From Synechococcus sp. PCC 6312 (GTDB taxonomy: Bacteria > Cyanobacteriota > Cyanobacteriia > Thermosynechococcales > Thermosynechococcaceae), in NCBI RefSeq assembly GCF_000316685.1, contig NC_019680.1:435501-499500 (forward strand): a stretch of 64,000 nucleotides of DNA, written 5' to 3'. The notes beneath the pieces were generated by a model. The model did not search any database. It was not told where the DNA came from and was given only the letters and a program-made list of their open reading frames with translations. Both the position numbers and the translations under genes were made by a program. Every line of letters starts with the position of its first letter. Position 1 is the stretch's first letter. Positions 4,780 through 42,428 of this stretch are shown piece by piece.

Positions 4780-6173
4780 TCCAACTCCTGGGCCAAGATT
4801 TTGGTAATGGCGGCCGCTGACTGCTGCTGGAACTGCTTGACATCCACCTGTCCCAAGAGCCAAATCGCCAGGCCCATCCCCAGAATCGGTAAACAAAAGA
4901 CCGTGGCATAAGCGAGTAAGGGTTCACCAAAAAGCCGCCGGCCCACATCCAACGCTGTCCCGCCCAACACCGTCGCTGATCCCCGCGCAATCGCTTGGGC
5001 CAGGCCCCAGGCCCCGATAAAGGTTCCGGCTGTTTCGGCCGCGGTTAAATCTAACATTAAGCTCAAGGCCCCAGTGGTCGTAATTCCGGCTGCAATCCCA
5101 AATAAGACCAGTTCTCCCAACAGCAGGGTTGAATTTCCCGTGAACCCGGCCAAGAGGAGCAACACAAAACTCACAGCCACGGCTCCACAGCCCAAACGCG
5201 TTGTCATCATTTTTCCGAGGCGCGGCACAATTAAAAAGCCGGTTAAGCTCAGACCCAATAGTGTTCCCATCCCCCAATAGGCATTCAGCCGCGTCGTTTC
5301 ACTAATGGTCATCCCAAAAACTTCACCGCCAAAGGGTTCTAAGACCGGCTCCTGGATAAATAAACTGACCGTCATCAAAAGCAAAAAGCCGAAGAAAATG
5401 CCCGTTTGCCGATTAGCCAAAAGAATTCGCAAGGCCCGCCCCAAGGTAATATTTTCTGAGCTTGTCCGGGCCTGGGTGCGCTGACCATAACGGGAAAACT
5501 TAGCTTCAATCCCCCAAGTTCCAGCCACGGCTAAGCCGACAACGAGCAGCAAGACAATCAGGAATAGGCGGTTAATCGCTGCTTGTAAGTCAGCCAAGGG
5601 CGTATTGAGTTCAATTTGTTTGAGTAACCCAGCACTGAGAATCGCCCCAATCACGATCCCCACGGTCAGCATTGACCAAACCACCCCGACCAGTTGACTC
5701 CGGTTTTCCTCATCAGAGACATCCACCAACAGAGCCGCAAAGGGGGTAGAACTGGCACTGACAAAGGCTCCATAACAGGCAAAGAGAAATCCTAAACACA
5801 CCATCCAGAGTGTTGTTGTGCCAGTCCAATTTGTCCCATCCCAGGCCCCGGCGACTTGCCAAATCACCTGTACCGTCAAGAAAGCCACCAGGCTAAAGGC
5901 CACTGCCCCCAACCAGACATAGCCAGTGCGGTGAAACCCTTTAATCGGGTAGGCATCGGACAACTGCCCAAACCAAACCCGGACTGGGGCCACAAACTGA
6001 TGCATGGCAATGGTTAAAACCACCAAGGTGGCTGGAAGGGTTAATTCTTGGATCATGACCCGATTCAGCACCCCCAAGGTCAAAATGGACATCATCCCCA
6101 GGCCCATCTGGAATAGGCCAAGGCGAAACATCTCCCACAGGGGCAATTTGGGCAGGGTGGTATTTTCCGTCAT
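4776..6173 (-). CDS. BCD family (PucC/LhaA-like) major facilitator protein
   Basis: 465 residues with about 12 hydrophobic segments, matching the BCH/PucC branch of the major facilitator superfamily (LGLFQMGLGMMSILTLGVLNRVMI at the N-terminus, QLSDAYPIKGFHRTGYVWLG after the second helix). PucC and LhaA act in assembly of bacteriochlorophyll antenna complexes. Cyanobacterial homologues are thought to handle chlorophyll or chlorophyll-binding proteins in the thylakoid membrane; the exact substrate is not known. Convergent with purQ, overlapping by 4 bp. The 223 bp before its start are shared with the divergent msrB gene. Confidence 0.85.
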   Translation of the reverse strand: MTENTTLPKLPLWEMFRLGLFQMGLGMMSILTLGVLNRVMIQELTLPATLVVLTIAMHQFVAPVRVWFGQLSDAYPIKGFHRTGYVWLGAVAFSLVAFLTVQVIWQVAGAWDGTNWTGTTTLWMVCLGFLFACYGAFVSASSTPFAALLVDVSDEENRSQLVGVVWSMLTVGIVIGAILSAGLLKQIELNTPLADLQAAINRLFLIVLLLVVGLAVAGTWGIEAKFSRYGQRTQARTSSENITLGRALRILLANRQTGIFFGFLLLMTVSLFIQEPVLEPFGGEVFGMTISETTRLNAYWGMGTLLGLSLTGFLIVPRLGKMMTTRLGCGAVAVSFVLLLLAGFTGNSTLLLGELVLFGIAAGITTTGALSLMLDLTAAETAGTFIGAWGLAQAIARGSATVLGGTALDVGRRLFGEPLLAYATVFCLPILGMGLAIWLLGQVDVKQFQQQSAAAITKILAQELD

Positions 6174-36634: not shown

Positions 36635-39025
36635 ATGATCAGCCCATTATCGCCGCCCCTTGCATCTGGCTCAAATCTTCTCCAGGTGGTGAAAACGGCT
36701 GTTCAAACGATCACCCCCCAAGCCACCATGCACCAGGCCTTGCAACACATTCGGCGTGACCAAGGCAACTGCTTACCCGTAATTGACCCCATGAATGGGA
36801 TGTATCGGGGCCTGGTGACCGAGCGGGAACTGGTCAAAGCGATTGCTCACCCCCTACCCTTAGCAGAATTAACTGTAGCTGATGTCATGCGGGATGCCCA
36901 GACCCATCTCAACTTGGCAACCCTTGATCAGCCGATGCAGGTCTTGCACGCTTTTCGTCAGTTTCAGTGCAATGCTCTCCCCGTTGTCGATCCTCAAGGA
37001 CGGTTGCAGGGCATTCTCAATCGTCAAGACTTTCGGAATACCTTAGAACCCACAGATCTCCTGAAGTTGAAGCGGGCCGAGGAAGTTATGGTGTCGGACG
37101 TGCGGGTGATTAGCCCAACCCAATCTTTAGCAGAGGCGGCGGCCATCTTGGGGGCTGAAGAGATTAGCTGCTTGGTGGTGGTCAGGGAAGCAGAACCAGA
37201 TTATCCCCTGGGTATCCTCACGGATCAAGATATTCTCAACTACTATCAACAAACTCCCAATTCTGCGACTCTCCCGATCCAGGCCTGTATGAATGCGTCG
37301 GTGATTACCGCCCAAACCCAGGACTCCATTTGGCAGATTCATACCCTCATGGCTCAGCATCAAGTCCGGCGGATTGTGATTGTCAATGAACAGGGAAAGC
37401 TGGCCGGCCTGGTCACCCAAAGTAGTATTCTCTGGGCCATTGATAGCCAAGAAGCGGGCTGGATCATTCACCTGCTCCAAATCGAACTCCAGCAGGCCAC
37501 CAGCGAACTGCGCGCTTCCCTCAGCCAACACCAGGCCTTAACCGCCGCCATTACCCAACGGGAACTCCAGTACAACACGCTCCTGGGTCAACTCCCTGCG
37601 GTTATCTATCAACGCGGTTTGGAGCCAGACTGGAGGTTGATCTATACCAGTGACTATTGGGAAACTCTCAGCGGTTATCGGCCAGGCATGATTGGAGAAA
37701 TGGCCTCCCTGATTCTGCCAGAGGACTATGAGCGGGCCAAACTCCAAATTCAAAGCGCAATCCTCCAAAAGCAACCCTATGTCGTTGAATATCGCTGCCG
37801 CCATCGCAATGGAACCCTAATTTGGATTCAAGACCGGGGCCAGCGGGAACCCGATCAACCAATCCTGAGTGGAATTCTCCTGGATGTCACCGCCCAACGC
37901 CGCCAAGAAGAATTACTCCAACGCTATTTGCAACGGGAGTTACTCATCAGCACCATCAGTCAAAATATTCGCCGCTCTCTGGATTTAACCCAGGTGATGC
38001 AAAGTGCAGCCGATGATGTCCGCCAAATTCTCCAAACCGACCGGGTATTAGTTTTTCGTCTTTTGCCCAATGGCCTGGGGGTTGTCGAAGTTGAATCCCT
38101 GGCCCATCCTGAGCAGTCAATTCTCGGCCGGTTTATTCAGGATCCCTGCTTTTTAGACAACCTCAGTCGCAAACTTACATCGGGTTATACCGCCACCATC
38201 AGTGATAGCCACCAGGCCAAGCTGCATCCCTGCCATCGGGAACTTTTACTAAACCTAAATGTCCGGGCGAATTTAGTCGTCTCCATCCACCAAAATGAAC
38301 GAATTTGGGGGTTACTCATTGCCCATCAATGTCACAGTCCCCGGCTTTGGCTCACCGATGAGATTCTGTTATTACAACGGATTGGTGAAGCCTTAGCCAT
38401 TGCGGTCAATCAGGCCGAGCTTTATCAACAACTGGCCCAAGCCAATCAAGAACTCCAGCAACTCGTCTATGTAGATGGCTTAACCCAAATTGGGAATCGG
38501 CGACAGTTTACGGATATTTCCTTAGCAGAATGGCGACGGGCGGCCCGAGAGCAAACCCCCATCAGCCTAGTTTTAGTGGATATTGACTATTTCAAACTTT
38601 ATAACGACCACTACGGCCACCAACAGGGAGATGTCATCCTCTATCGGATTGCCCAACAATTGGCGGCAGGGTTACAACGGCCGGGGGACTTGGCCACGCG
38701 TTATGGCGGCGAGGAATTTGCCCTGATCTTGCCAGATACTCCAGAGGCCGGGGCTATCCAAGTGGTTGAACAAATCCAAGAAGCCATTGCAACCCTGGCC
38801 ATTCCCCACGCCGCTAGTTCAATCGCCCCCCACCTCACCCTCAGTTTTGGCATCGCAACCCTGATTCCCCAACCCACCCAGGCCCTCGACCTCTTACTGA
38901 CGGCGGCGGATCAAGCCCTCTATCAAGCTAAGGCCCAAGGACGTAACACCTATTGTATCCACACCCCCACGACAGGGGATATCCAAGGCCAGCCAGCCCC
39001 CCAGCCAGCCCAAAAACTGGAATAG
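36635..39025 (+). CDS. Light-sensing diguanylate cyclase: CBS x4 - PAS - cyanobacteriochrome GAF - GGEEF (SesA-like)
   Basis: 796 residues, cytoplasmic. Four CBS motifs (about 20-270, two Bateman pairs), a coiled segment, a PAS domain (about 315-420), a GAF domain (about 435-595) and a GGDEF domain (about 608-775). The GAF domain has the cyanobacteriochrome hallmark Cys-His at 533-534 (KLHPCHRELL) followed by VRANLVVSI and IWGLLIAHQC, plus DPCF at 503-506, which fits the second cysteine of DXCF-type photoreceptors (blue/green sensing). The GGEEF signature (691-695) is intact, and an RxxD product-inhibition site (682-685) lies five residues before it. It should make cyclic di-GMP under light control, as Thermosynechococcus SesA does. 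A co-directional gene follows after 89 bp. Confidence 0.85.
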   Translation: MISPLSPPLASGSNLLQVVKTAVQTITPQATMHQALQHIRRDQGNCLPVIDPMNGMYRGLVTERELVKAIAHPLPLAELTVADVMRDAQTHLNLATLDQPMQVLHAFRQFQCNALPVVDPQGRLQGILNRQDFRNTLEPTDLLKLKRAEEVMVSDVRVISPTQSLAEAAAILGAEEISCLVVVREAEPDYPLGILTDQDILNYYQQTPNSATLPIQACMNASVITAQTQDSIWQIHTLMAQHQVRRIVIVNEQGKLAGLVTQSSILWAIDSQEAGWIIHLLQIELQQATSELRASLSQHQALTAAITQRELQYNTLLGQLPAVIYQRGLEPDWRLIYTSDYWETLSGYRPGMIGEMASLILPEDYERAKLQIQSAILQKQPYVVEYRCRHRNGTLIWIQDRGQREPDQPILSGILLDVTAQRRQEELLQRYLQRELLISTISQNIRRSLDLTQVMQSAADDVRQILQTDRVLVFRLLPNGLGVVEVESLAHPEQSILGRFIQDPCFLDNLSRKLTSGYTATISDSHQAKLHPCHRELLLNLNVRANLVVSIHQNERIWGLLIAHQCHSPRLWLTDEILLLQRIGEALAIAVNQAELYQQLAQANQELQQLVYVDGLTQIGNRRQFTDISLAEWRRAAREQTPISLVLVDIDYFKLYNDHYGHQQGDVILYRIAQQLAAGLQRPGDLATRYGGEEFALILPDTPEAGAIQVVEQIQEAIATLAIPHAASSIAPHLTLSFGIATLIPQPTQALDLLLTAADQALYQAKAQGRNTYCIHTPTTGDIQGQPAPQPAQKLE

Positions 39026-39114
39026 TCTGCCCCAGTCTGGTCTGAAAAACCATGCTACGTTCTAACCACATAATTTTCTAAGTGTCATGGTGTGAACGGG
39101 ACAAGGGGCGGGCA

Positions 39115-41550
39115 ATGACCATCGCGACTGACTCTATCGGGATAAATAATCCCCAAGAATTAGCCCAAGTCTTGAGCCAAATCTTTGCCCCCCAAGCCAT
39201 AACGGCCCGCATTGCCTACCAACCGGATCGGTGGCGGATTTTATTAGAAGCGCCGGAGCCTCCCGATCGCCGCCAGTCCTTGCAAACATTACAAAAATTT
39301 TTTCAAACCGTTGCCCTACCTCCAGGCCTTGAAGTGTATGGACGAGAAGCGGGGGAAGAAGCACCGGCCTGGGGAGTCCGCATTCAGCCCAAAATAGCCA
39401 CCCCTGTTTCTTTAAGTCCAGTGGGCAAAGCCGCCCCCGCACCAGAGCCAGTCTGTTTAGTGAATCCTCTCACCGCAGTTCCCCAGGCCAAGGTTGAGCA
39501 AGATCCTGGGGTTGGCCTATTTGTTTCCAGCTTGGGCCTGTTATTTGCTCTCGCCACTGGCCTGTGGTGGTTATCCCCAACGACCTGGATTCAGTCGGCA
39601 CCTCCGGCCAATTCGACTCAAATCCGTGATCTAATCACCACCATTGCATCCGATGTTAACCGCCGTTATCCACTCCCATCCCCTCAGGTTGATCTAGTCC
39701 CGCCGCCCCCATTTCGAGGGAAAACTATCAATCAAGTTAGCTTGCCACCGGAGCATAAAGTTGTTGCCCTCACCTTTGATGATGGCCCAGATCAACCCCA
39801 AACCTTACAAGTTCTAAACATCCTCAAGGCACACAAGGCTAAGGCCACATTTTTTGTGATTGGCCGCAGCGTTCAGAAGTACCCCAACATTGCCGCCAAA
39901 ATTGTTGAGGAAGGACATACCATTGCTAACCACAGTTGGTCTCATCGGTATCAGCAATTTTCACCCCAAGCCGCCGCCACAGAATTTACGCGTACTGATC
40001 AGATCATCCAAGCGGTGACAGGAGTTAAGAATTACTGGTTTCGTCCGCCAGGGGGCCGCCTCAACAATGGCCTGGTGGACTATGCCAAAACCCAGCAACT
40101 CCCAATCTTAATGTGGTCGGTGGATTCGCGGGATTGGCAACCCGGCCGTTCTCCTGCCCAAATCAAAGCCGCTGTCCTCCAGCAAACCCGGCCGGGGGGG
40201 ATTGTCTTGCTTCATGATGGCGGTGGCCCCAGACAGGCGATGATCCAGGCCCTGCCAGGGATTCTAACCGTCCTTAAAAAACAGGGTTATGAGTTTGTGA
40301 CGATTCCCCAACTTCTGCATCTAAAACAGGAGAGTCTTGACCCCACTCCCCCACCCCCAGCCTGGCTTGGCTTACACTCCATCACCCAGGTAATTGCTGC
40401 CCATAGTCAACTGAGTCAAGAGCAAGCCACTTTATATCAATCCCTTGTTAATGCCTCTCCAATTGCTATTGATGAACGGGAAACCTTGGCTGCTAAATAC
40501 CAAACTACTCAGCAAGCAGTCCGTTGGGTGAGTCAACGCCTCAGTATGGAGCAACAAGCACAGCAATCTTGGGATCAAGCTCTTAACTTTAGCCAGGCAG
40601 CCATGAACGCGGTGCAAAGGGGACAACTGAAGCAGGCTAAGGATAGTTGGCAACAGACTATTGCAACCCTCAAGACTGTTCCCCATCAGTCTCTTATGTT
40701 TTCCCAGGCCCAGGCCAAAACAGAAGATTCTCAACAGCAGTTGCAACGGGTTCAGCATCAATTTGCACAACAGCAATCAAGATTTTTAATTCCCCTCGCC
40801 AAAAGTGCTGGTCTCAGCAACAATGCCGCCGTTAGTTTATGCAGCCCCAATGGCCAATGCTACTCACTCCGGGGGGATATTGTTCCAGATAGTGCCGCCA
40901 GTCTGATTAAACTTCCCTTAGCAGTTGTTACTTTACATTGGGCCCAAGAACATCAGTATTCTCTAGAGCATCCCTTCGCCATTCAGCCCCAGAATAATAC
41001 CGAAGATGCCTCCATCATCCGGGTTGGGCAACGTTATCCTCTGAAAACCGTGATTGGTCAAATGATTAGCCGCAGTAGTAATATTGCCCCCAATCAACTC
41101 ATGGATACTTTGGGTTGGGACTATATCAACCGAGTCATGCAGGGGTATGGATTTAAGACCATTAAAATTTATTCAAAATTGGTTGGCCAAAGTCGGCAGC
41201 CTGCGAACCTAGGACGACAATCCAACGGTAGCAGTATGCAGGAACTCAGCCAGTTGATGGGCAAAATCTACCAAAACCAACTGCCCCATGCCCCGTTCCT
41301 CCAAACAGTCCTAGCCCAGCAAACTGACCGAGAGATTGGCTTTAAGGCCTTGAAAAGTACCCAGGCCGAGTGGATCGGGGAAAAAACAGGACAAAATTCC
41401 TTGGTCTTGGGGACGGTCTTGGCCTTCAAAGTTAAGGGGGAAATTTATACCCTAGCCATTATGGATCGCAATCAAGTCGGCCTATCCGCGCTACAAAATG
41501 CGATTCGCAACATCGTCAACTATGCCACGACCCACAATCTCCGTTCCTAG
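39115..41550 (+). CDS. Membrane-anchored polysaccharide deacetylase fused to a class A beta-lactamase-like domain
   Basis: 811 residues from ATG 39115. A cytoplasmic N-terminal domain (1-110, I do not recognise it) and one membrane segment (about 134-153) are followed by a NodB deacetylase domain (about 214-400). That domain has TFDDGP (D222, D223), HSWSH (H273, H277), RPPGG, DSRDW and VLLHDG. A Gln-rich helical linker (about 430-555) leads to a beta-lactamase/serine-hydrolase domain (560-811) with SLIK (S596, K599), SSN (654-656) and KTG (757-759). Both halves keep full catalytic sets. Expected outside the membrane, acting on peptidoglycan or surface glycan; the fusion is unusual. Probably co-transcribed with the diguanylate cyclase. 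Confidence 0.85.
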   Translation: MTIATDSIGINNPQELAQVLSQIFAPQAITARIAYQPDRWRILLEAPEPPDRRQSLQTLQKFFQTVALPPGLEVYGREAGEEAPAWGVRIQPKIATPVSLSPVGKAAPAPEPVCLVNPLTAVPQAKVEQDPGVGLFVSSLGLLFALATGLWWLSPTTWIQSAPPANSTQIRDLITTIASDVNRRYPLPSPQVDLVPPPPFRGKTINQVSLPPEHKVVALTFDDGPDQPQTLQVLNILKAHKAKATFFVIGRSVQKYPNIAAKIVEEGHTIANHSWSHRYQQFSPQAAATEFTRTDQIIQAVTGVKNYWFRPPGGRLNNGLVDYAKTQQLPILMWSVDSRDWQPGRSPAQIKAAVLQQTRPGGIVLLHDGGGPRQAMIQALPGILTVLKKQGYEFVTIPQLLHLKQESLDPTPPPPAWLGLHSITQVIAAHSQLSQEQATLYQSLVNASPIAIDERETLAAKYQTTQQAVRWVSQRLSMEQQAQQSWDQALNFSQAAMNAVQRGQLKQAKDSWQQTIATLKTVPHQSLMFSQAQAKTEDSQQQLQRVQHQFAQQQSRFLIPLAKSAGLSNNAAVSLCSPNGQCYSLRGDIVPDSAASLIKLPLAVVTLHWAQEHQYSLEHPFAIQPQNNTEDASIIRVGQRYPLKTVIGQMISRSSNIAPNQLMDTLGWDYINRVMQGYGFKTIKIYSKLVGQSRQPANLGRQSNGSSMQELSQLMGKIYQNQLPHAPFLQTVLAQQTDREIGFKALKSTQAEWIGEKTGQNSLVLGTVLAFKVKGEIYTLAIMDRNQVGLSALQNAIRNIVNYATTHNLRS

Positions 41551-41637: not shown

Positions 41638-41655
41638 TGCGGGAGAAAAACATGG
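41638..41655 (+). promoter_or_regulatory. Ribosome-binding site of the YaaW gene
   Basis: GGGAG at 41641-41645 lies 6 bp before the ATG at 41652 and supports that start. Confidence 0.55.
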
Positions 41656-42428
41656 ATGAACTCAGGGCAGCCCTCGAGTTAGCCACGGAGCAGGAACTCC
41701 AAGAGTTGACCGAAATTCTATTCCAACGCAAACTAAATCCCTGGGATTACTTTCATACCCCCGACCCGATTACTGTCCAAGCCCAAGATCGCGACTGCTG
41801 GTTAGATGCCATTGAGCAACGATTCCGCTTTCTGGCCGCCGATGGTATGACGGTTCTCAAAGGTCAAAGCCAAACGATCAGTTATCGGCAAACCTTAATG
41901 CGCGTCTGTCGGTATCTCAAGATTCCCTTTCGCCCCAGTTGGACAACCTCAGAATTGGAATCGGAAATTTTTCTCGCCCTCTTGCAACGGATGTGGGCCA
42001 AACTTCCAGACCAAGACCGTCAAGTGATGAGTAAGGAAGTCCAAAAGTCCTTGCCCCAACTGGCCCAGCACCCAGACTTTACCCTCCAAAATATTCGCCT
42101 CTTACTGGAAGGCAGTGCAGCCATTGCCATGAGTTCGCTGATGCGGCGGTTAATTGTCCAACAGGTCACACGCCAATTTGCCCTCCAACTCACCGGCCAG
42201 CAATTTACCCGGGGACTCTTTTCTGCTCAGGGGGCCACTTTAGGAATAACTCGCTTTGCCGTTGCCCGCAGTGCCCTGGTGTGTTTTAGTACTGCCCTTT
42301 GGATTTGGTTCATTGCGGATCTCGGGTGGCGGGCCATTGCAACCAACTATGGGCGGATTATTCCGACAATTTTTACCATTGCCCAAATTCGCTTGACCCG
42401 TGGGGAAGAGTGGCTACCGGCCTATTAG
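41652..42428 (+). CDS. YaaW family protein
   Basis: 258 residues. The N-terminal helical part (ELRAALELATEQELQELTEILFQRKLNPWDY) and the C-terminal hydrophobic region match the YaaW family, which is found in cyanobacteria and enterobacteria with no settled function. About two membrane-prone stretches lie near the C-terminus (ARSALVCFSTALWIWFIADLGW). Preceded by a good ribosome-binding site. Confidence 0.75.
   Translation: MDELRAALELATEQELQELTEILFQRKLNPWDYFHTPDPITVQAQDRDCWLDAIEQRFRFLAADGMTVLKGQSQTISYRQTLMRVCRYLKIPFRPSWTTSELESEIFLALLQRMWAKLPDQDRQVMSKEVQKSLPQLAQHPDFTLQNIRLLLEGSAAIAMSSLMRRLIVQQVTRQFALQLTGQQFTRGLFSAQGATLGITRFAVARSALVCFSTALWIWFIADLGWRAIATNYGRIIPTIFTIAQIRLTRGEEWLPAY

Follow-up and report, generated by a model that had tools for sequence, protein, structure and literature searches.

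A rare cyanobacterial fusion of a NodB deacetylase domain with a PBP-like serine domain

A single gene of the cyanobacterium Synechococcus sp. PCC 6312 joins two known kinds of enzyme, a NodB-type polysaccharide deacetylase and a PBP-like serine acyl-transferase domain, on one polypeptide. The fusion is real and rare, and its second half is re-identified here: as judged from its sequence, it is most likely a PBP-type DD-peptidase, distinct both from class A beta-lactamases and from PBP-A proper. The gene lies in the window, i.e., the whole stretch of 64,000 nucleotides of DNA that was analysed, and coordinates given without a locus name refer to this stretch.

Gene structure, domain order and membrane topology

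The fusion gene (39115..41550, + strand) occupies a single open frame with 0 internal stops that runs from either a GTG at 39082 or an ATG at 39115 to the stop at 41550. Translation from the ATG yields 811 amino acids plus the stop; the alternative GTG start yields 822. Since a purine-rich stretch, AAGGGG, was located by eye about 9 nt 5′ of the ATG, the 811-residue product is preferred. A scan for promoters and terminators returned nothing exceeding chance. Operon conservation was checked against G017, a genome of a second genus carrying a homologue, and against the related genus g11, and the neighbours of the fusion gene differ in both. Upstream on the same strand lies a gene (36635-39025, +) encoding four CBS domains, PAS, GAF and a GGDEF (diguanylate cyclase) domain, an arrangement kept in neither G017 nor g11. 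The product of the downstream gene (41652-42428, +; 258 aa) is weakly similar to MsyB-type PRK10236 (20 bits against a cut-off of 395). Another serine-hydrolase gene (L162 1405-2415, − strand; PF13354, 41 bits) is found about 0.5 kb ahead of the start of the window.

The protein consists of an N-terminal domain (aa 1-104; 39115..39426, +), one membrane helix (aa ~130-154; 39502..39576, +), the NodB/CE4 polysaccharide deacetylase domain (aa 209-405; 39739..40329, +), a helical linker module (aa ~406-560; 40330..40794, +), and the PBP-like domain (aa 561-811; 40795..41547, +). Kyte-Doolittle means of 19-residue windows stay above 1.4 over a sustained run at residues 130-154 and nowhere else. From this topology, the N-terminal domain would be cytosolic and the NodB and PBP-like domains periplasmic. 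A preliminary description of this DNA had proposed the order cytosolic domain, membrane helix, two outside domains; the single helix agrees with that order, which overlooked the helical module between the two enzymes.

Matches to the N-terminal domain (alignment A2) occur in 79 of 386 cyanobacterial genomes, on proteins of varied length that include one PGA_cap and one TPR protein. No Pfam family scored above its cut-off with this domain, and no significant match was obtained in the PDB. The unit spans about 95 residues (39115-39426 in the window; also in L143-L159), is often repeated within a protein, and has the consensus AIAxLLNRxLQPQGI...VYGRQxG...PAW. An HMM of the helical module, built from stand-alone PBP-like proteins only, matches the protein of the window (iE 7e-16), its homologue in G017 (2e-24), and truncated NodB relatives (5e-7 to 1e-10). 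It also matches proteins that carry the N-terminal domain but no PBP domain (L145, L148, L149, and a neighbour gene in L150). By these matches, the helical module is mobile and common to PBP-like proteins and to membrane proteins with the N-terminal domain. Since both modules also reside on other proteins, the fusion protein is a mosaic of parts occurring elsewhere, and the two represent mobile cyanobacterial modules lacking Pfam families.

Identity of the two halves

The deacetylase half matches PF01522 over residues 212-327 (E 5e-35; 120.6 bits against a curated cut-off of 23.1). All elements required of a NodB/CE4 enzyme are present: the DD pair and the HxxxH that supply metal ligands and base in TFDDGP (aa 220; 39772) and HSWSH (aa 273; 39931), RPP in RPPGG (aa 310; 40042), DxxDW in DSRDW (aa 337; 40123), and LH in LLHDG (aa 365; 40207). 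The solved relatives of the domain in the PDB are mostly peptidoglycan and chitin deacetylases. With its canonical motifs, the domain resembles the CE4 peptidoglycan deacetylases PgdA, PdaA, and PdaC, from which the fusion protein differs in having RPPGG as motif 3 and in the helical and PBP-like domains that extend C-terminal of NodB. It does not reach the NCBIfam equivalog thresholds set for PgdA, PdaA, and PdaB.

The second half matches PF13354 (Beta-lactamase2) over residues 593-760 with E 1e-20. An acylating serine is provided by the SxxK element SLIK (aa 596; 40900), followed by SSN (aa 654; 41074) and KTG (aa 757; 41383), so that the complete motif sets reported at the outset for both halves are confirmed. 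In class A beta-lactamases, Glu166 of the omega loop serves deacylation. The corresponding region of the fusion protein (SKLVGQSRQPANLGRQSN; 41173..41226, +) holds no acidic residue in the alignments: the position of the Glu is occupied by Ala in the fusion protein and by A, F, K, S, T, or W across its family, here termed A1, with an acidic residue in 0 of 19 members. SDN is replaced by SSN in the fusion protein and nearly all members of A1, and by SNN in two. Although the domain shares the PF13354-type architecture and the SxxK, SxN, and KTG motifs with class A beta-lactamases, the missing Glu, the SSN, and a score of 25.8 bits against the NCBIfam class A model NF033103 (cut-off 200) rule out this identity, and the initial designation as a "full class A beta-lactamase-like domain" is withdrawn on the same grounds. 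PF13354 is detected in 19 of 19 family members and PF00905 (Transpeptidase) in 10 of 19. After KTG, the family continues as xNSxVLGTT, giving the full motif EKTGxNSxVLGTT. The fusion protein displays the features that define the family, namely PF13354 preceded by a helical module and carrying SSN, EKTG, and paired cysteines. A single-sequence AlphaFold model of the domain reached a pLDDT of 34 and was left unused.

The best PDB match of the family profile, at 65 bits, is Tll2115 of Thermosynechococcus elongatus (PDB 2j7v, 2j8y, 2j9o, 2jbf), which we take to be PBP-A; the PER- and CTX-M-type class A beta-lactamases among the matches listed score at most 36 bits. PBP-A, which lacks the omega-loop Glu of class A beta-lactamases, has been characterized as a DD-carboxypeptidase and DD-endopeptidase that prefers amidated muropeptides (PMC11189452). 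The fusion's family shares with it the PF13354 fold, the SxxK, SxN, and KTG motifs, the missing Glu, and the cyanobacterial origin. Despite these similarities, several differences exist. While PBP-A has SDN, a short PLPD(M/L)xGTN loop, and HKTGD, the family has SSN, a longer loop, and EKTGxNSxVLGTT, and PBP-A carries no fused deacetylase. Membership of PBP-A is excluded by the tree, in which the 19 sampled A1 members form one clade with 100/100 support, separate from a PBP-A clade with 99/97, and by the profile scores (at least 357 bits for the family, at most 87 for all others). The PBP-A of the source genome itself (L160), encoded elsewhere in the genome, falls inside the PBP-A clade. Taken together, the tree, the match to Tll2115, the Glu and SSN changes, the presence of PF00905, and the low class A score argue for a PBP-type DD-peptidase as the most likely identity.

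Distribution and descent of the fusion

When 386 cyanobacterial genomes were searched with a profile derived from alignment A1 of the PBP-like domain, 20 genes in 18 genomes were recovered at 357-437 bits, the remaining matches scoring no more than 87 bits. The same profile gave no match at E 1e-15 in 150 Pseudomonadota genomes. Eighteen of the 20 genes are devoid of NodB, and most encode proteins of about 440 residues. These stand-alone relatives (L114-L129, L138) share the PBP-like domain, and the helical module is present in almost all of them; unlike the fusion, they start with a signal or anchor segment and lack both NodB and the N-terminal domain. In G304 (L139 721-2640, +), this PBP-like domain forms part of a 639-aa protein whose long N-terminal region is unrelated, a different fusion within the family. 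A PBP-type match within a 2127-aa open frame was seen in another cyanobacterium (G317:C53:48959-49549). A1 stands next to PBP-A as a discrete PBP-like family of cyanobacteria that is apparently uncharacterised, and bears on the origin of class A beta-lactamases.

Among the 29 genomes of the order searched, one other full-length protein of the same architecture was found, in G017 (L084), with 43% identity over residues 12-807. It keeps all motif residues in both halves, and its presence in a second genus excludes a chance joining as well as a sequencing or assembly artefact. The unusual combination of a deacetylase and a penicillin-interacting-type domain on one membrane-anchored chain, pointed out in the preliminary description, is borne out by the counts, since the NodB–PBP-like fusion accounts for 2 of the 20 A1 members in the 386 genomes. 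Of the long frames with a listed PF13354 match in Bacillota (249 genomes) and Actinomycetota (149 genomes), a part was read, and none of these frames shows NodB motifs. Long frames are present among 80 NodB loci, where one motif-regex match (L075, 1134 aa) was taken as chance. Such a fusion was not found in the literature. Within these limited samples and listed matches, the term "very rare" is justified; they do not establish that the fusion is confined to this cyanobacterial family.

Genes comprising the N-terminal domain, the helix, NodB, and the helical module, and ending where the PBP-like domain would start, occur in five of the 11 genomes of genus g11, and no remnant of a PBP-like domain was detected downstream of them. 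Their dN/dS values of 0.11-0.21 are indicative of purifying selection, which suggests that selection maintains the deacetylase half by itself and that the NodB deacetylase functions without the PBP-like domain. Three tandem related genes of about 220 aa each (Uma2-like by eye) lie directly 3′ of the truncated gene in G021 (L167 8453-10499, +). In the shared part, G017 and g11 are 45-48% identical and the protein of the window and g11 41-42%, and in the tree the PBP-like domain of the window's protein has that of G017 as its sister (98/99). These relationships are best fitted by one fusion in a common ancestor of G017 and the genus to which the window belongs, after which g11 presumably lost the PBP-like domain. 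In G022, another g11 genome, a 41-codon remnant of the N-terminal domain with a stop (L165 ~6050-6172), located between a phosphate-transport ABC ATPase gene (pstB-like) and the next gene, is a decayed copy of the locus.

Proposed function and competing explanations

The fusion protein probably acts as a membrane-anchored, bifunctional periplasmic wall editor that combines glycan de-N-acetylation and D-Ala-D-Ala cleavage on one chain. With the N-terminal domain remaining in the cytosol and one helix spanning the inner membrane, both enzymes would face the periplasm. NodB would take N-acetyl groups off the wall glycan (GlcNAc or MurNAc). The PBP-like domain would form a serine acyl-enzyme on D-Ala-D-Ala stems and, like PBP-A, release D-Ala or open cross-links. 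As the deacylating Glu is missing, penicillin is expected to block this domain and not to be hydrolysed by it. The helical module would serve as a spacer between the two enzymes, whose activities would be independent and directed at the same polymer. The topology, catalysis, the sugar target, penicillin binding, the wall as substrate, and any role of the N-terminal domain are all predictions. In support of this assignment, the motifs are intact in both halves, also in the independent homologue of G017. Some observations weigh on the other side: a second DD-peptidase is not obviously needed in a genome that already contains the PBP-A gene L160, and the g11 genes, which presumably lost the PBP-like domain, show that coupling of the two activities is dispensable.

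The occurrence of the N-terminal domain on a PGA_cap capsule-type protein also counts against the wall editor, because the substrate could be another polysaccharide. NodB might then be directed at an exported capsule or sheath polymer with the PBP-like domain only tethering it to the wall, and CE4 enzymes do act on several glycans. This possibility is nevertheless considered unlikely, since, among solved structures, the best relatives of the NodB domain mostly deacetylate peptidoglycan or chitin, and the domain joined to it belongs to a wall-peptide type. Somewhat greater doubt attaches to a role of the PBP-like domain as sensor or tether which, upon acylation by a stem peptide or a beta-lactam, holds or regulates the deacetylase in a BlaR1-like manner. 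The missing Glu would make a long-lived acyl-enzyme plausible, and the cytosolic-side domain is indeed connected via one helix, but PBP-A likewise lacks the Glu and yet turns over peptides (PMC11189452), and the N-terminal domain has no known signalling relative in the PDB or Pfam and a diverse set of partner proteins. The inside-to-wall signalling that the preliminary description read from the domain order received neither support nor contradiction from these results. An elaborated version of the sensor is very improbable: a transmembrane regulator whose PBP-like domain, on being acylated by a stem peptide or a beta-lactam, would control the deacetylase, with coupling through the helix to the cytosolic N-terminal domain; were it true, the cross-linking state of the wall and glycan deacetylation would be tuned jointly.

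One or both domains might instead have lost catalysis and fulfil a structural role. Relatives of intact appearance can be inactive, as exemplified by the NodB-fold proteins BA0330 and BA0331 of Bacillus anthracis, which carry a deacetylase annotation but show no such activity (PMC4505593); moreover, g11 has shed the PBP-like domain, and in G022 the gene as a whole has decayed. However, every motif residue is kept in both fused proteins and the truncated genes evolve under purifying selection, which renders a loss of catalysis improbable. That a sequencing error merely fused adjacent genes can be practically dismissed: nothing was found in its favour, the linker is continuous and homologous to the linkers of stand-alone relatives, and the full-length homologue belongs to another genus.

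If the preferred reading as a wall editor holds, the protein would represent a rare natural union of glycan-strand and stem-peptide editing, the coordination of which becomes testable within one protein. A natural comparison set is available in the genomes that carry the fusion, the truncated gene, or the stand-alone PBP-like protein.
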